NCBI RefSeq assembly: GCF_000723165.1
Contig: NZ_HG322949.1
Location: 5,527,826 to 5,579,958, forward strand
Direction of reading: 5' to 3'
Source of the DNA: Janthinobacterium agaricidamnosum NBRC 102515 = DSM 9628
GTDB lineage: Bacteria; Pseudomonadota; Gammaproteobacteria; Burkholderiales; Burkholderiaceae_D
Length of the DNA stretch: 52,133 nucleotides
The position numbers were made by a program, and so were the translations under genes. The notes beneath the pieces are model-generated. The model saw nothing but the letters and a program-made list of their open reading frames with translations, was not told where the DNA came from and made no database searches. Of the stretch, positions 34,667-42,964 are shown piece after piece; the stretch's first letter is position 1; each line of letters begins with the position of its first letter.

Positions 34667-35710
34667 TTGCTGACCTTCTACAATGAATTGCACGGCCAGC
34701 ACCGGGGCCGCTACGAAATCTTTCGCGGCGAAATGGTGCCGTGCTTCGAAAAACCGGAACGGGCCGACATCGTCGTCGCCGAACTGGGGCGACGCAACCT
34801 GGGCCGCATCGTCACGCCGCACGGCGTGCCGTTGACTTCGCTGGAACGTATCCACACGCCGCGCTACCTGCATTTCTTGCGCCACGCATGGGCCGACTGG
34901 CTGGCGCTCGACCCGGCCAATGCCGAAAAAGATGCGTTCCCGGCCGTGTGGCCGGTACGCACGCTGCGCGACGATATCGAGCCGGAAAATTTTTGCGCCC
35001 GGCTCGGCCTGTATTCGATGGACAGCGGCACGCCGCTGACGTCGGGCACCTGGATCGCCGCCAAGACCGGCGCCGATTGCGCGGTCAACGCGGCGCATGC
35101 GCTGCGCCTCGGCGAACGCTCCGCCTTTGCGCTGACGCGGCCGCCCGGCCACCATGCCGGCGCCGATTTTTTCGGCGGCTACTGCTTCCTCAACAATGCC
35201 GCGCTGGCGGCCCAGCATTTGCTGGACGACGGCGCGCGCAAGGTCGCCATCCTCGACCTCGACTACCATCACGGCAACGGCACCCAAAGCATTTTCTACC
35301 AGCGCAGCGACGTGCTGTTCCTGTCGCTGCACGCCGACCCGCGCCATGAATATCCGTTTTACCTGGGCCACGCCGATGAAACGGGCGCCGGTCCCGGCGC
35401 CGGCTTCAACATGAACCTGCCGCTGCCGGCCGGCACCGGCAGCGCCAGCTGGTTCGCGGCGCTGGAAACGGCCTGCCTCCGCATCGCCGGCTATGCACCG
35501 GACGCGCTGGTGGTGTCGCTCGGCGTCGACACCTTCGCCGGCGATCCGCTGTCGCAATTCAAGCTGCAAAGCGCCGACTTCCTGCGCATCGGCGAACGGC
35601 TCGCCTTCCTCGGCTTGCCGACCGCCTTCATGCTCGAAGGCGGTTATGCGGTCAAGGAAATCGGCATCAACGTGGTCAATGTACTGGAAGGTTTCGAGAC
35701 CGCCGAGTAG
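34667..35710 (+). CDS. Histone deacetylase-family amidohydrolase (acetylpolyamine-type)
   Basis: 347 residues from a TTG start (MLTFYNELHGQHRGRYEIF) behind GCGGAG; 48 bp after gshA. The arginase/deacetylase fold has the catalytic pair H162-H163 (RPPGHHAG) and zinc ligands D199, H201 (DLDYHHGNG) and D288 (LGVDTFAGD). N-terminus FYNELHGQHxG and GTWIAAKTGADCAV fit the bacterial acetylpolyamine amidohydrolases rather than acetoin-utilisation AcuC. It probably removes acetyl groups from polyamines; the exact substrate is inferred. Its stop codon is only 6 bp from that of the convergent DyP-GRE gene. Confidence 0.9.
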   Translation: MLTFYNELHGQHRGRYEIFRGEMVPCFEKPERADIVVAELGRRNLGRIVTPHGVPLTSLERIHTPRYLHFLRHAWADWLALDPANAEKDAFPAVWPVRTLRDDIEPENFCARLGLYSMDSGTPLTSGTWIAAKTGADCAVNAAHALRLGERSAFALTRPPGHHAGADFFGGYCFLNNAALAAQHLLDDGARKVAILDLDYHHGNGTQSIFYQRSDVLFLSLHADPRHEYPFYLGHADETGAGPGAGFNMNLPLPAGTGSASWFAALETACLRIAGYAPDALVVSLGVDTFAGDPLSQFKLQSADFLRIGERLAFLGLPTAFMLEGGYAVKEIGINVVNVLEGFETAE

Positions 35711-35716
35711 CCGGCT

Positions 35717-38700
35717 TCATAACCTCCCTTCCTCTCCAGGCGTAAAATATTGCCGGCGCTGGTGCTGGCCCTGGTGCACCGGGAACATGGTCGCGTAAAA
35801 CTCGGTCCAGCCGCCCATCCGCACCCGCACCAGGTTGTAGCGCTCCGGATCGTTGACCGCCGCCTGGTACGTGGCCAGGTCGGCGCAGGTCAGCGTGATC
35901 AGGTTGGAGCCGGTTTCGCCGCGCGCATACGCCTTGACGAAGGCCTGCAATTGCTCAAGAGGGAACGCTTCGGCGATATTCATGTCGACCGGCGACGCGT
36001 TCGACAAGCCATACTCGACCGCATCGCCGCGCCAGCTTTGCAGCGCCTGATAGATGTTGCGGAACGCCGGCGCGGGCGGCAAGTCCTGCGGCGCCGGCGC
36101 CGGCGACAGGTCGGACGCGATCGGCATGCCGTTGCGCCGTCCATCGGCCGACGCGCCGCAGCCGAGGCCATCGCCGACATACCCTTCGAAGGTGCCGATG
36201 CCCGGCGTGACGACGAAATCGGCGACATTGAAGTTCTTGGCGACGCCGTCCAGCACCGGCTGGAACGCCGGCGCCGGCTGGCGTATCGTATCGACGCAGA
36301 TGCGCACCAGATTCTCAAGCAGCCAATTGCCCAGCGCATCGACGTCGGCATGGCCGCTGCCCCACTTCGGCAAGGCCAGCGCGATGGCCCGCAATTCGCG
36401 GTAGCGCCGGCCGCGCTCACCGGCGTCGGCCGGCCCCAGCAACTCGCTCTGGTACGGTTCGATCATGTCGTGGCCCCAGTCGTTGATCAGGCAATCGACC
36501 AGTTCCGGCAAGGTGGTCACGGCGCTGGCCGGATCGAATACCAGCGCCCGTATCGCATACAGCGCATCGATGGTGTTCGAGACGCCGACGCACAGCGGCG
36601 CGATCATGTTAAAGCGCGCGCCGCCGTCGGTCAGGTCGCGCCCCGCGTCGAGGCAGCCGTCGATGACGGCCGACAGCAAGGGACTCGGACAGACCCCGGC
36701 CAGCTTGCCGAGCCCGCTCAATATGGTGCTGTAGCTTTGCGCCGTCAGCCACTCCAGCTGCCGCAGGAAGATGTCCTGCAACTGCCCGAAGCTGGTAATC
36801 GCGCCGGCCGGCGGCGAGCGGAAGGTTTGTTTCAGGCCGCGCAGATAGACCGGGCCGGCCTGGCCGTAGCAGGCGCCCTGGTTCAGGGTCTGTTCCAGCG
36901 CCGTCATCGGCGTCACATTATTGAAGGCAAACGCCGTGGCGCCGGCCAGCATCGGTTCATAACAGCCGTCGGCCGCGTAGTTGCGCGACCATGCCGGCGT
37001 CACGGTCGGACCGGAATCCTGCAGCGCCTGGCACAGCCGGTCGTCCTGGTACAGGATCGGATGGGCGCCGCCGGCCAGCAGGCAGCGCGCGGCCTCGTCC
37101 ATGATGTCGTCGGGGATGCCGTCGTACACGCGCAGCGACAGCGTCGGCGCATTGACGGGAATCCGCCGCGCCGCCTTCAGGCACAGCATCGTCACCGCAT
37201 TGGCGCCGCCGGTCGGCGCCGCGTCGCCATTGGCGACATAACCGCCGACGGTGATTTGCTGGACCCACTGATTGATGCCGCCGCCCTGCGGAAAATTGCC
37301 GCCGTAGCCACACACCGCGGTGGTGCCGTAGGTTACGTAATCGGTCACCGCGCCGCGGTTGACGAAGGCGTTCTCGCCGATCTTGAGCCACAGGCAATCG
37401 ATGATTTCCTGGGCCCGCCCGGTATCGATCTGGTCTTGCTCCAGCAGCGGCCACAGGATCTGGTCGAGCCGGCCGAACGAGGTCAGTTCGCCGACCAGGT
37501 GCAGGCAGCAGTGGAAGGAAAACACCAGTTGCACGCCATCCTGGAAGCTGGCCGGCGCTGCGCTGGACAAACGCCGCAAGCGCGCCGCCACATCCTGCAT
37601 ATTGGCCGCGTCGTCCGGATCCGCGGCACTGGCGGCGGCCGTATCGGACAACAGCGCCCAGTTTTCCAGGTAGCCCTGCACGCCCTGCAGCGACCATAGC
37701 GCGGCGGTATAAAAATCGGCCTGCGCGCCCGCCGCATCCGGTCCCAGCGCATCCAGTTTCGCTTGCACCCGGGCGATCAGGCCGCCCAGCCCCAGCGTGA
37801 CCAGGGTCTGGTAATCCGGCACCACATGGCCCATCGCCGACCATTCGTTCAACTGGCCGTTCAGCCAGGCGCTCATGGTTTCATCCTCGCTCAGATAGGG
37901 CACCACTTCCTTGCCGCGTCCCAGCGTGAAATCGGGGATGATGCCAACAATCAATTCTTCGGGATAAATCCGCAGCAAGCCGTTGTGGCGCGCGATCTCC
38001 GACTCCGGATGCGACAGCAGGCCGGCCAGCGTCTTTTGGTTGGCCAGCCCCTTGCGCAGCGCGACCGGCTGGGCCAGTTCGGCCGCACTGGCCAGCGTCG
38101 ACAAATGCGGCAGGCGCGGAAATGGCGAGCGGCTCAGCCAGCCATCGCTCCAGTGCGAAAACGCCCGTCCCAGCAAGGACAGCAGGCGCGCGCCGGGCGG
38201 GTCGCCGGCGCTATATTTGCCTTCGCTCATCTGGTGCAGATAGTCTTGCGAGTTGTAGAACATATAGCCGTTCCTGCTGCGCACATCCCAGTGCGCATCT
38301 TCCGTCACGTCGTCGACGGTGGCGGCCGGCACGCCCAATTCGCTGGCGCTCGGCACATACCAGTAACTGCCCGCCACGCCCTGCACCACGCCCATCAGGC
38401 GGTCGGCGGGACGGTCGGGACGCTCGCCCATCATGTGCTGGATGACGCTTTCAAAACGCGGCTGGCGGTTGCAGAAGGCGACGAACATCAAGCCTTTTTC
38501 GCGCGCCGCGCTGCCGGCGTGCTCGCCGAACGGCAGCGCCTGGCGCAGGAATTTCAAGTTGTCGCCATTGGCGTCCTTGACATGCACCCGGTGGATATGG
38601 GCGTTGCGGTCATGCTGCGGCAAGATGGCGCCGTCGGGATTGCGGCCCAGCATGGCGTCCTGCGCATCGGGCAGCATGGCGCCGATGGTGCTCCATTCGA

Positions 38701-39235
38701 ACAGGAATTTTTGCGTGAACGCATAACACGCGCCGGGGAACTCGCCATCGACCAGGATGTCGCTGGCCATGCTGACCGGGTCGTTGGGATTGGTAATGCC
38801 GTCGAGATAACGGCCGCCCATCACCTTGCCGTCGCTGCGCTTGCCGGCGGCGACGATGTCGATCTGCGCGGCCAGCGCATACAGCCGCTCGCGCACCGAC
38901 TGCATCAGCGCCTCGGCGGTGGCGGCGCTGGCCGCCTTCACGTACAGCAGCACGTCGCCACCGGTGTCGCGCAACTTCGGCGAGTTGTTCAGCACCGTGC
39001 GTTCGACCGGGATGTCGCGCTGGCGCCACCGTCCCCACAGCGCCGGATCGAAGGCCGCCACCAGGCCGGCGGCGTCCTGCGACGCCTTGGCGGCGTTGGC
39101 CAGCTCGGCGATCACATCGAGCAGCGCCTGTTCCGTAGCGGCGCTCTGGTCGCGCAAGGTCAGCGTGGCGATCTGGCCGAACACGGCATGGGTCAGCAAT
39201 CCTTGCTGGGCATATTGGATAACATCGAGCGGCAT
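35717..39235 (-). CDS. DyP-type peroxidase fused to a glycyl radical enzyme (pyruvate formate-lyase-like)
   Basis: A single frame of 1172 residues starts at the ATG behind a strong AAAGGAGA. Residues about 1-300 are a dye-decolourising (DyP) peroxidase: the GxxDG motif GRYLDGITNP (D145), proximal haem His H213 in AHIHRV and distal Arg R231 in LRQALPFGE. From about residue 350 a full glycyl radical enzyme follows: GHVVPDYQTLVTLGLGG, GRLDQILWPLLEQD, CLWLKIGENAF, TVGGY, PTLSLRVYDGIPDD, the active-site GCYEP (C758, E760) and DGRRNGMPIASDLSPAPA. The C-terminal radical loop is RVRMGGWTEFY (radical Gly expected at G1142, next to W where most have Y). GCxEP is typical of the diol dehydratase/choline lyase side of the family. 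Active sites look intact in both halves. Glycyl radicals are destroyed by oxygen; no activating radical-SAM enzyme is nearby. Substrate unknown. Confidence 0.9.
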   Translation of the reverse strand: MPLDVIQYAQQGLLTHAVFGQIATLTLRDQSAATEQALLDVIAELANAAKASQDAAGLVAAFDPALWGRWRQRDIPVERTVLNNSPKLRDTGGDVLLYVKAASAATAEALMQSVRERLYALAAQIDIVAAGKRSDGKVMGGRYLDGITNPNDPVSMASDILVDGEFPGACYAFTQKFLFEWSTIGAMLPDAQDAMLGRNPDGAILPQHDRNAHIHRVHVKDANGDNLKFLRQALPFGEHAGSAAREKGLMFVAFCNRQPRFESVIQHMMGERPDRPADRLMGVVQGVAGSYWYVPSASELGVPAATVDDVTEDAHWDVRSRNGYMFYNSQDYLHQMSEGKYSAGDPPGARLLSLLGRAFSHWSDGWLSRSPFPRLPHLSTLASAAELAQPVALRKGLANQKTLAGLLSHPESEIARHNGLLRIYPEELIVGIIPDFTLGRGKEVVPYLSEDETMSAWLNGQLNEWSAMGHVVPDYQTLVTLGLGGLIARVQAKLDALGPDAAGAQADFYTAALWSLQGVQGYLENWALLSDTAAASAADPDDAANMQDVAARLRRLSSAAPASFQDGVQLVFSFHCCLHLVGELTSFGRLDQILWPLLEQDQIDTGRAQEIIDCLWLKIGENAFVNRGAVTDYVTYGTTAVCGYGGNFPQGGGINQWVQQITVGGYVANGDAAPTGGANAVTMLCLKAARRIPVNAPTLSLRVYDGIPDDIMDEAARCLLAGGAHPILYQDDRLCQALQDSGPTVTPAWSRNYAADGCYEPMLAGATAFAFNNVTPMTALEQTLNQGACYGQAGPVYLRGLKQTFRSPPAGAITSFGQLQDIFLRQLEWLTAQSYSTILSGLGKLAGVCPSPLLSAVIDGCLDAGRDLTDGGARFNMIAPLCVGVSNTIDALYAIRALVFDPASAVTTLPELVDCLINDWGHDMIEPYQSELLGPADAGERGRRYRELRAIALALPKWGSGHADVDALGNWLLENLVRICVDTIRQPAPAFQPVLDGVAKNFNVADFVVTPGIGTFEGYVGDGLGCGASADGRRNGMPIASDLSPAPAPQDLPPAPAFRNIYQALQSWRGDAVEYGLSNASPVDMNIAEAFPLEQLQAFVKAYARGETGSNLITLTCADLATYQAAVNDPERYNLVRVRMGGWTEFYATMFPVHQGQHQRRQYFTPGEEGRL

Positions 39236-39401: not shown

Positions 39402-39443
39402 ACAATTAAATAGCTTGCTATTTAATTGTGAGTTATGTATAGT
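39402..39443 (+). promoter_or_regulatory. ohr promoter with overlapping perfect palindrome (OhrR-like operator)
   Basis: ACAATTAAATAGC at 39402-39414 and its exact reverse complement at 39417-39429 form a 13+13 bp palindrome with a 2-bp centre. Inside it lies TTGCTA (39415-39420), and 17 bp later TATAGT (39438-39443), a near-consensus sigma-70 promoter toward ohr. The AATT-rich palindrome resembles operators of OhrR, the MarR-type repressor of ohr genes (consensus TACAATT-AATTGTA). No ohrR gene is in the window. The same 350-bp gap is upstream of the DyP-GRE gene on the other strand. Confidence 0.7.
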
Positions 39444-39585: not shown

Positions 39586-40011
39586 ATGTCGATCGAAAAA
39601 GTCTTGTACCGCGCTCAAGCAACCGCAACCGGTGGCCGCGAAGGCCGCGCCATCTCGTCCGATAATGTGCTGGACGTGCAACTGACGACGCCGAAAGAAC
39701 TGGGCGGCAACGGTGCAGCCGGCACCAATCCTGAGCAATTGTTTGCCGCCGGCTACTCGGCTTGCTTCCTGGGCGCGATGAAATTCGTCGCCGGCCGCGA
39801 CAAGATCGCGCTGCCGGCAGGCTTGCAAATCGAAGGCCATGTCGGCATCGGTGCGATTCCTACCGGTTTCGGCATCGAAGTCGAATTGAAAATCTCGCTG
39901 CCGGGCATGGAGCGGGCCGCCGCCGAAGCGCTGGTCGCCGCCGCCCACATCGTGTGCCCCTACTCGAACGCGACCCGCGGCAATATCGACGTCACGCTGA
40001 CCATCGTGTAA
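39586..40011 (+). CDS. ohr: Organic hydroperoxide resistance protein (OsmC/Ohr family)
   Basis: 141 residues with the two redox cysteines C60 ([10 protein letters not shown]) and C124 ([13 protein letters not shown]). The N-terminus [17 protein letters not shown] and the [14 protein letters not shown] stretch are characteristic of Ohr rather than OsmC. It reduces organic hydroperoxides using lipoylated proteins. A strong terminator follows. It is divergent from the DyP-GRE gene. Confidence 0.95.
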
Positions 40012-40720: not shown

Positions 40721-42964
40721 ATGGAGAACGTCACGGAGCACGCTCCGCACCCAGCCCCCAGATCCAGCCGCGCCGAGGTGCTGTCGGGCCAGTACCAGAT
40801 CCGCCGCCGTCTCGGCGAAGGCGGTTTTGGCGAGGTGTTCGAAGCGTGGGACACCCAGTTGCGCCGCAACGTCGCGCTGAAGCAGTTAAAACCGATGACG
40901 GCCGCGTCCGGCGCCGACCTGCTGCTGGCGGAAGCGCGGCTGGCCGCTTCGCTCAAGCATAGCGCCTTCGTCAAGATTTTCGCGATCGACGATGTCGGCG
41001 ACGATGGCGCCCAGTCGATCATCATGGAACTGGTCGAAGGCGACACGCTGGGCCAGTTCGGCGCGATCCGCGCGGTGAGCCACGCACAGGCGCTGGACAT
41101 CGCCGCCCAGGTGGCCGAGGCGATGTACCAAGCGCACCAGGCCAAGCTGGTGCACGGCGATATCAAACCCTCCAATTTGATGCTGGAAGCGTCCGGCAAG
41201 GTGCGCATCCTCGACTTTGGGCTGGCCCGCCAGATCGACCGCCAATCCGCCGAAACCGTGCTGCTGGGCGGCGCCGATACCCATGGCACGGTGGCGTACC
41301 TGGCGCCGGAACGCTTGCTGGGCAAGCCCAGCAGCCCGCTCAGCGATATTTATTCGCTCGGCGCGGTGCTGTATGAATTGCTGGCCGGGGAACGGCCGTT
41401 TGCCGAATTGAACGGCCTGGCGCTGGCCGCCGCGCACTTGAATTCCTCCTCCGCATCCTGGCCGGTGCCGGATGGCGGCGATGCCGCCGTCATCGCGCTG
41501 GTGCGCAGCATGACCGCCAAGGACCCCGACCTGCGCCCGCCGTCGATGCAGGCGGTCGGCAAGGCGATCCGCGCCATCACGCATCCGGACGCCAGCGTGC
41601 GGATCGAACTGGCGCCGGACAGCATCGCCGCTGCCGCCGCCCTCCCTGCCGCACGCCGCTTTGGCCTGCGCACCGTCTGGCTCGGCCTGGCGCTGGTCGT
41701 GCCGCTGCTGACGCTGGGCGCATGGCAGGCCGGCTTGCCGGCGCAGATCGGCCAACCGGCGCAGCCGCCGTACTCGGAAGCGGCGGCCATGCGCGACGGC
41801 CTGGAAGCGCTGCGGGTATCCGACCGCGACGGCAGCCTGGACCAGGCCATCGCCGCCTTCGACAGCATCCTGGCGCGGCAGCCGGCGCACGCGGCGGCGG
41901 CGGCCGGCCTGTCGCTGGCCTACAGCCTGCGTTATTACGGCGACCGGCTCGATGAAACCTGGCTGCAGCGCGCCGACGCCAGCGCCCAGCAGGCGCTGTT
42001 GTACGACGACCAGCTGGCGCTGGCCTATGTGGCGCAAGCGTGGGTGCGCGAATCCCAGGGCAGCTACGACGAAGCGCTGGCGATCACCGAGAAAGCGCTG
42101 GCGCTCGATCCGCTGAACTTGTTCGCGCTGTTCGGCAAGGTCGATTTGCTGACCCGCATGCGCCGCTACGACGCGGCCGAACAATCGATCGCGCAAGCGA
42201 TGCGCGCCTATCCGAAGGAGCGCCAATTCTCGGATTCGCTGGGCAAGCTGCGCTACCTGCAAAACAATTATGCCGCCGCCGAGCAGGCATTTCGCCGCAG
42301 CATCGCGCTGGAACCGGATGCGGTGTACGCCTACGCCAATTTGAACCAGGCCCTGCTGCGCCAGGACCGCAGCGACGAAGCGCTGCAAGTACTGCAGCAA
42401 GGTTTGCAAATCCGCCCCAACAGCCGTTTGTACGGCAACCTGGGCACCGCGTTGTTTGCGCGCGGCAATTACCACGGCGCGGCGGAAGCGTTCGAACACG
42501 CGGTATCGGCCAGCCAGGGCAATCCGAACCTGTACCTGAACTGGGCCAACCTGGCCGACACGCTGCGCTGGATACCGGGCCGCGAAGCGGCGTCGCGCCA
42601 CGCCTACCAGCAAGCCGCCGATTTGCTGGAGCCCAGGCTGCGGCGCGCGCCGTCCGACATCACCTTCAAGTCGCGCATGGGGCTGTACCGCGCCAAACTG
42701 GGCCAGCGCAAGGCCGCGCTGGCGTGGACCCTGGATGCGCTGCACAGCGATGCGGCCAGCGCCGACGTGCGTTTCCGCGCCGCGGTCGCCTACGCGGTCT
42801 CGAACGAGCTTGAAAAAGCGGTGACGCAACTGATACAGGCGCGCAAGCTCGGCTATCCGGCCAACCTGATCGACAGCGAGCCGGACTTGATGACGGTCCG
42901 GCGCGACGCCCGCTACCACCTCCCCCCTCCACCACCAAAGAAAGCGCAAGATGAGCAAACCTAA
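40721..42964 (+). CDS. Serine/threonine protein kinase with membrane segment and TPR-like repeats
   Basis: 747 residues. Kinase domain about 25-285: glycine loop LGEGGFGEVFEAWD, K54 (VALKQL), catalytic D147 in HGDIKPSNL (HGD in place of HRD, common in bacterial kinases) and D165 of DFG. One membrane helix at about 315-337 (VWLGLALVVPLLTLGAWQAG) puts the C-terminal part outside the cytoplasm if it is a true anchor. Residues about 365-700 are tandem helical repeats of TPR type (ALALDPLNLFALFGKVDLLTRMRRYDAAEQSIAQAM; AFRRSIALEPDAVYAYANLNQALL). The last 14 bp overlap the next gene. The signal and targets are unknown. Confidence 0.9.
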   Translation: MENVTEHAPHPAPRSSRAEVLSGQYQIRRRLGEGGFGEVFEAWDTQLRRNVALKQLKPMTAASGADLLLAEARLAASLKHSAFVKIFAIDDVGDDGAQSIIMELVEGDTLGQFGAIRAVSHAQALDIAAQVAEAMYQAHQAKLVHGDIKPSNLMLEASGKVRILDFGLARQIDRQSAETVLLGGADTHGTVAYLAPERLLGKPSSPLSDIYSLGAVLYELLAGERPFAELNGLALAAAHLNSSSASWPVPDGGDAAVIALVRSMTAKDPDLRPPSMQAVGKAIRAITHPDASVRIELAPDSIAAAAALPAARRFGLRTVWLGLALVVPLLTLGAWQAGLPAQIGQPAQPPYSEAAAMRDGLEALRVSDRDGSLDQAIAAFDSILARQPAHAAAAAGLSLAYSLRYYGDRLDETWLQRADASAQQALLYDDQLALAYVAQAWVRESQGSYDEALAITEKALALDPLNLFALFGKVDLLTRMRRYDAAEQSIAQAMRAYPKERQFSDSLGKLRYLQNNYAAAEQAFRRSIALEPDAVYAYANLNQALLRQDRSDEALQVLQQGLQIRPNSRLYGNLGTALFARGNYHGAAEAFEHAVSASQGNPNLYLNWANLADTLRWIPGREAASRHAYQQAADLLEPRLRRAPSDITFKSRMGLYRAKLGQRKAALAWTLDALHSDAASADVRFRAAVAYAVSNELEKAVTQLIQARKLGYPANLIDSEPDLMTVRRDARYHLPPPPPKKAQDEQT

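Follow-up and report, generated by a model that had tools for sequence, protein, structure and literature searches.

A fused DyP peroxidase and glycyl radical enzyme in Janthinobacterium agaricidamnosum: a conserved two-domain family with a possible peroxide-driven route to its radical

Glycyl radical enzymes (GREs) are regarded as anaerobic tools: an oxygen-sensitive radical S-adenosylmethionine (radical-SAM) activase, which ordinary GREs require, switches them on, and O2 destroys them. The gene considered here, in a 52,133-nucleotide stretch of the Janthinobacterium agaricidamnosum genome (the window), joins a GRE in one protein to a haem peroxidase of the DyP family. The closest described system is 'dyprx', a DyP–PFL fusion reported from Chaetomium cochliodes in 2016, whose function is given as unknown and whose significance is called elusive (PMC5041501). 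The authors state that the fusion is present in other prokaryotic and eukaryotic genomes, credit further fusions to an encyclopaedia chapter of 2014, propose transfer between proteobacteria and ascomycetes, and report that H2O2 induces the fungal fusion gene 3-fold and peroxyacetic acid induces it 18.5-fold (PMC5041501). The earlier note on this DNA had known of no described system with this pairing, which that publication contradicts. Within the titles, abstracts and full texts of the open-licence literature searched, the fusion is treated only in this paper and no mechanism was found; in PMC4420034, a text search finds neither 'pyruvate formate' nor 'PFL' nor 'glycyl'. The fusion is a real and widespread enzyme family, already noticed in print and uncharacterised. 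Our leading interpretation, to which we give somewhat less than an even chance, is that peroxide, acting through the DyP half, generates the glycyl or thiyl radical of the GRE half without a radical-SAM activase.

The gene runs on the minus strand from an ATG at 39235 to a stop at 35717, and its 1172 codons contain no internal stop, in agreement with the single continuous frame claimed in the earlier note. Its features are as follows.

35717..39235 (-): DyP peroxidase–GRE fusion gene, 1172 aa (open frame, Pfam and NCBIfam)
38327..39235 (-): DyP peroxidase domain, residues ~1-303, B-like (Pfam, NCBIfam and solved structure 5de0, E 1e-21)
38801..38803 (-): D145, at the position of the distal Asp in the 5de0 alignment (Asp in 152/159 fusions)
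38597..38599 (-): H213, at the position of the proximal haem His in the 5de0 alignment (His in 158/159 fusions)
38543..38545 (-): R231, at the position of the distal Arg in the 5de0 alignment (Arg in 156/159 fusions)
35720..38263 (-): GRE half, residues ~325-1172, PFL-like (Pfam, 1r8w alignment and start of unfused relatives)
36956..36964 (-): C758-Y759-E760, the C-x-E motif, predicted thiyl cysteine and base (159/159 fusions, 20/20 GRE-only)
35807..35821 (-): putative radical loop RMGGW, residues 1139-1143, including G1142 (alignments)

Both halves exceed their Pfam cut-offs, Dyp_perox_C (PF20628) at residues 143-297 with 79.3 bits (cut-off 20) and PFL-like (PF02901) at residues 460-986 with 334.7 bits (cut-off 24.3), so that the two assignments proposed from the letters alone are upheld. 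No Pfam domain beyond these two matches at E ≤ 1, and the Gly_radical domain PF01228 is among those absent at that threshold. In NCBIfam, TIGR01413 (Dyp_perox_fam) scores 117.2 bits against a cut-off of 100.5, whereas the curated GRE subfamily models match far below their own cut-offs, which places the GRE half in no known GRE subfamily. The solved structures matched are DyPs for the first 300 residues (top match 5de0, E 1e-21) and GREs from residue 465 onwards (top match 1r8w, glycerol dehydratase, E 1.3e-39). All the motifs quoted in the earlier note are found: GRYLDGITN (D145), AHIHRV (H213) and LRQALPFGE (R231) in the DyP half, and GCYEP (C758, E760), DGRRNGMPIA and RMGGW (G1142) in the GRE half.

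Conservation was assessed across 159 full-length fusions (at least 1100 aa), after 18 shorter members of 177 listed proteins were dropped. C758, E760, H470, G1141, G1142 and W1143 are invariant in all 159, and the equivalents of C758, E760, G1141 and G1142 are also kept in 20 of 20 GRE-only rows. The DyP triad is nearly as constant (Asp145 in 152 fusions, His213 in 158, Arg231 in 156), and the view that catalytic residues are intact in both halves holds for most of the family; a decayed gene is ruled out by the conservation of both active sites. The GRE half is the better conserved of the two, with a mean majority-residue fraction of 0.67 vs 0.55 for the DyP half.

In the alignment with 5de0, D145, R231 and H213 fall on residues that we take to act as distal Asp, distal Arg and proximal haem His. 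The classical DyP motif is GxxDG; the fusion protein reads R142-Y-L-D145-G, keeping the Asp and final Gly with the first Gly replaced. In the alignment with 1r8w, C758-x-E760 falls on C433-x-E435, RMGGW on RVAGY and G1142 on G763. The dehydratase-site Asp of 1r8w is not conserved in the GRE half, and two alignments that differ around H281 agree in placing no His at that position; the substrate of the GRE half is therefore probably something other than a simple diol. The radical loop of the fusions follows the pattern RxRxGGW, and its homology to the ordinary radical loop is seen by profile alignment despite the missing PF01228 match (one fusion, P0176, reaches 16.8 bits with that model, under the cut-off of 22.2). 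The residue after the putative radical glycine is Trp in 159/159 fusions and 20/20 GRE-only rows; at the same position, 12 ordinary GREs have Tyr or Phe in 11 cases (seven sequences and four solved structures) and Cys in one. From its position, this Trp (W1143) could serve as an electron relay.

Two homologue searches, each scoring the 8000 candidates with most shared words, delimit the family; organism names in them are the sources' own labels, not audited for contamination. In the first, 117 of the 120 listed homologues (of 124 at E ≤ 1e-10, query included) hold both Pfam domains. A chance fusion is thereby excluded and a frameshift artefact ruled out; homologues bridge the joint, the scenario in which they would cover only one half fails, and the genuine, broadly conserved fusion proposed in the earlier note stands. 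The carriers in this search are Janthinobacterium, Massilia, Collimonas, Andreprevotia, Chromobacterium and many ascomycetes, the latter including Fusarium, Xylaria, Chaetomium and lichen fungi among the listed matches, where fungal homologues are ~55-65% identical to the Janthinobacterium fusion. In the second search, from a Bacteroidota member, 116 of the best 120 of 647 matches (query included) have both domains, and the names include Lewinella, Chloroflexota, Longimicrobium, Archangium, Thermoanaerobaculia, Rhodobacter and the sea star Patiria miniata. We take the named carriers to live aerobically. Species genomes yielded eight fusion loci, including those of Paracidovorax anthurii, Azohydromonas australica and Pseudomonas cichorii, and presence is sporadic: whole fusions occur in 2/40 genus genomes and 2/398 phylum genomes, and, with P0207 as query, in 2/369 class genomes (own genome counted each time). 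The same query found no viral copy in viral_contigs. The full fusion assigned to Patiria miniata (P0176) lies on an 8.3 Mb contig and, unless it is contamination, is a GRE gene in an animal. A plasmid of Asticcacaulis sp. AND118 (L093) carries a fusion that is 36% identical, with neighbours, all on the same strand, that encode a SUMF1/EgtB-type nonhaem iron enzyme, a DUF2278 protein and a LamG protein.

Unfused relatives of the GRE half were sought with a query trimmed so that fusions fall outside the length range. This returned 90 proteins, including a group of ~850 aa that is 38-42% identical and comes from Flavobacterium noncentrifugens, an Acidobacteriota bacterium and metagenomes; these sister GREs start at the equivalent of fusion residue 325, i.e. 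at the fusion joint. No unfused sister was found in Pseudomonadota, either among 385 genomes or among 369. A quick tree was built from 44 fusions, 20 GRE-only proteins (840-910 aa) and 5 ordinary GREs; its outgroup branches are long. All 64 fused and GRE-only sequences share one long branch, and 17 GRE-only proteins group together (SH-aLRT 93) beside the fusions (99). The other three GRE-only rows nest within the fusions: two lie on ~3-kb contigs and are possibly fragments, and the third (P0183), on a 21-kb contig, groups with lichen fungi. Taken as they stand, the labels fused and unfused require 4 changes on this tree; the simplest reading would be one fusion event, with DyP parts later truncated or lost. 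An unannotated 831-aa GRE on a plasmid of Novosphingobium sp. PP1Y (L102 3389-5884), in a record that has no gene table, carries Cys after the radical glycine; as a different kind of GRE (loop RIGGC), it was rejected as an unfused sister.

At the single sister-clade locus inspected, on a plasmid of Hymenobacter cellulosilyticus, a separate DyP gene lies 11 bp downstream of an unfused GRE, and no activase is annotated in the 26-kb stretch. The GRE is annotated as two frames and is hence frameshifted in that record. The DyP, its frame shortened by a shift, passes the Pfam cut-offs for Dyp_perox_N and Dyp_perox_C; its best NCBIfam match is the EfeB-type TIGR01412, under cut-off. It appears to belong to a different DyP class from the fused domain, so that, judging from this one record, the pairing of this clade's GREs with a DyP may have arisen on two occasions.

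The Janthinobacterium genome searched for an activase is a single contig, 99.99% complete, and the fusion is its sole PF02901 match. The GRE activase model TIGR02494 finds nothing in it at E ≤ 1e-3; relaxing the threshold to E ≤ 10 brings up, at best, a short stretch with E 0.001. Of the 13 Radical_SAM matches in the genome, none has an activase as its best model; 12 were scanned with NCBIfam, and the thirteenth is a broken frame read by eye as PA0069-like. Two of these proteins fall below the cut-off of their best model, one QhpD-like SPASM protein (319.8 vs 453) and one KamA-like protein (121.2 vs 199.2), and the genome could still hold an unusual activase. Across 10 carrier genomes (G000, G100-G107 and G352, with carrier G1009 left out), TIGR02494 exceeds its cut-off in none, a weak match in G352 being AmmeMemoRadiSam; the same model exceeds it in 3/14 control genomes, which indicates that the method is able to see activases. 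By these profile searches, this complete genome is without another PFL-like gene and without a recognisable GRE activase. The broken radical-SAM frame (L077; G000 contig 1, 3688729-3689244) has a second, similar partial stretch upstream at the same locus.

Peroxide-driven loading would work as follows. The DyP half, with its conserved Asp, His and Arg, would form a ferryl haem on reaction with H2O2 or with an organic peroxide. The oxidising equivalent would pass to the GRE half, perhaps via a conserved Trp or Tyr such as W1143 beside the glycine, and a glycyl or thiyl radical would form without a radical-SAM activase. Conserved Trp candidates for such a relay are W316, W362, W366, W657, W920 and W1143. 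The C-terminal half, a deeply divergent PFL-like barrel with Gly1142 and Cys758, would then carry out thiyl-radical chemistry, so that one protein would serve as a radical enzyme fit for aerobic cells. From the sequences we infer haem binding, peroxide use, transfer of oxidising equivalents, radical formation and substrate turnover alike. Such loading would explain both why the peroxidase travels with the GRE and why a GRE is found in aerobes. The retention of both active sites together, the lack of a recognisable activase in the genome, the adjacency of GRE and DyP in Hymenobacter and the invariant loop Trp all speak for it, as does the peroxide induction of the fungal fusion gene reported in the Chaetomium paper (PMC5041501). 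On balance it covers most of the facts with the fewest extra parts, a judgement we hold tentatively and short of even odds.

Several observations weigh against it. Eight of the 159 fusions deviate from the Asp/His/Arg triad: P0043, P0051 and P0052 have Glu for Asp, P0103 has Asn for Asp, P0072 has a gap at the His (possibly a gene-model fault), and P0116, P0175 and P0177 carry His at the distal Asp position and either Gly or Pro at that of the distal Arg, with the GRE half intact. Peroxidase chemistry is thus not universal in the family, and the DyP half of the last three may not be a peroxidase, which goes against a universal peroxide mechanism. The Hymenobacter pair is a single case in which both genes are frameshifted, and an activase might just as well dock at the conserved R-x-GG loop. 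Candidate activating proteins also occur in carriers: the QhpD-like radical-SAM protein in Janthinobacterium is present without a known partner; PflA (TIGR02493) exceeds its cut-off of 231.75 in 2/10 carriers, both Andreprevotia (282.8 and 285.9 bits); NrdG2, which activates class III ribonucleotide reductase, is above its own cut-off in G100, G101 and G103; and a Fer4_12 search gave 28 matches in 9 genomes, of which only 10 were classified by NCBIfam. The Chaetomium paper, moreover, names a putative PFL activase in that fungus (PMC5041501). In P0116, P0175 and P0177, the DyP halves perhaps have a different haem function.

In a second explanation, which we consider doubtful, an unrecognised or promiscuous radical-SAM enzyme activates the GRE and the DyP half clears peroxide harmful to the glycyl radical or to the activase chemistry. 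PflA in two of the ten carriers, NrdG2 in three and the putative activase of Chaetomium speak for it, and the induction of the fungal gene by peroxide suits it too (PMC5041501); the RxRxGGW loop aligns with the ordinary radical loop, and ohr, another peroxide-defence gene, adjoins the fusion. Set against this, the complete Janthinobacterium genome has no recognisable activase, and clearing peroxide would leave O2, which we take to be the agent that destroys glycyl radicals.

It is unlikely, and more so, that the two halves act in sequence, in either order, as a two-step enzyme fused for channelling. The conservation of both sites fits this, and a sister-clade GRE beside a DyP of apparently different class is what one pathway would lead us to expect. 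We compared neighbours at 9 fusion loci, with flanks of at most 10 kb and one locus covered for 1.5 kb on one side; the sole shared neighbour is one gene, present at 3 loci (two Andreprevotia and Paracidovorax), and no conserved neighbour points to a pathway. This gene (L013 13634-14893, also at L012 and L014) lies directly downstream of the fusion, is ~70-76% identical among them, has a signal-peptide-like start and matches neither Pfam nor NCBIfam. Sequential action also leaves activation of the GRE unexplained. A non-radical GRE half, serving the peroxidase as scaffold, sensor or thiol enzyme, is very improbable: the lack of a recognisable activase and the weak PF01228 signal (absent at E ≤ 1; 16.8 vs 22.2 bits in P0176) would suit it, but C758, E760, G1141 and G1142 are invariant in 159/159 fusions and 20/20 GRE-only rows, and the GRE half is better conserved than the DyP half (0.67 vs 0.55). 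The earlier note had left three roles side by side for the peroxidase, namely protection of the radical, supply of an oxidant and action on the same substrate; the lack of a recognisable activase in the genome favours supply of an oxidant, understood as peroxide-driven radical making, with none of the three proved.

The surroundings of the fusion gene in the window comprise the following features.

34667-35710: hdac neighbour (named by eye, no NCBIfam match)
39402..39429: perfect palindrome of 28 bp in the gap that separates ohr from the fusion gene, probably the operator of ohr
39586..40011 (+): ohr, organic hydroperoxide peroxiredoxin, divergent neighbour (TIGR03561, 182.7 bits, cut-off 88.85)
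40721-42964: large frame, by eye a serine/threonine protein kinase with TPR repeats

An operon with an activase is ruled out at this locus, the neighbours being convergent and divergent, and PADLOC found no match to a defence system. In three relatives (G022, G001 and G027), hdac and ohr lie 177-219 bp apart without an intervening fusion, G027 having its own copy at another site; the empty site is known from these three genomes, as a few kilobases separate hdac from ohr in other congeners. The fusion gene has a GC content of 65.3% (window, 61.0%) and appears to have entered beside ohr as a lone, single-gene insertion. The palindrome has no second match in the genome with up to 3 mismatches. 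Similar TAGCTTGCTA elements, as partial versions, stand upstream of ohr in two relatives with an hdac–ohr site without the fusion, and the palindrome therefore probably serves ohr, as a putative operator presumably of OhrR/MarR type. It was rejected as a family-wide operator: the regions upstream of 8 other orthologues lack it, although two of them contain different palindromes. Control of the fusion gene by peroxide, in line with the fungal expression data, is a lead only.

If the peroxide route is correct, a large, conserved family of GREs in presumed aerobes, bound to a peroxidase and here without a recognisable activase, would represent a further way of loading this type of barrel with a radical. 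A new class of GRE activation, peroxide-driven, haem-initiated and S-adenosylmethionine-independent, by which the barrel's thiyl-radical chemistry could proceed in aerobic bacteria, filamentous fungi and an animal, is conceivable and in our view less likely than not. Should the peroxidase instead protect the radical, the protein would be an oxygen-tolerant GRE and still of interest. The missing activase and the pairing in the sister clade make this little-studied fusion directly testable.

Among known systems, the Chaetomium dyprx protein has the same order, with an N-terminal DyP B and a C-terminal PFL, and belongs to the same family; its description gives no mechanism and assumes a PFL activase, whereas the Janthinobacterium genome has no recognisable one (PMC5041501). 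The present analysis adds to that paper the missing activase, a sister clade without the fusion, the operon found in that clade, the Trp of the radical loop and a wider distribution. The PFL-like GREs (glycerol dehydratase 1r8w, diol dehydratase 5i2a and the choline lyase CutC) share the PF02901 barrel, the C-x-E motif and the radical-loop glycine; the fusion differs in its GGW loop (xGY/F in those enzymes), in the loss of the dehydratase Asp, in subfamily models that stay under cut-off and in the lack of a recognisable activase in the Janthinobacterium genome. With the B-type DyPs (5de0, YfeX and DypB) it shares a homologous fold and the aligned Asp, His and Arg; it differs in being fused to a GRE and in the replaced first glycine of GxxDG, and the substrate of its DyP half may be a protein radical site. 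Class I ribonucleotide reductase draws the oxidant for its active-site cysteine from a metal cofactor. If our best explanation holds, the fusion would resemble that enzyme in using an oxidant from a metal site to form a thiyl radical in aerobes, while differing in having a haem in place of a di-metal site and probably a non-nucleotide substrate; the comparison is one of likeness in mechanism, not of membership.

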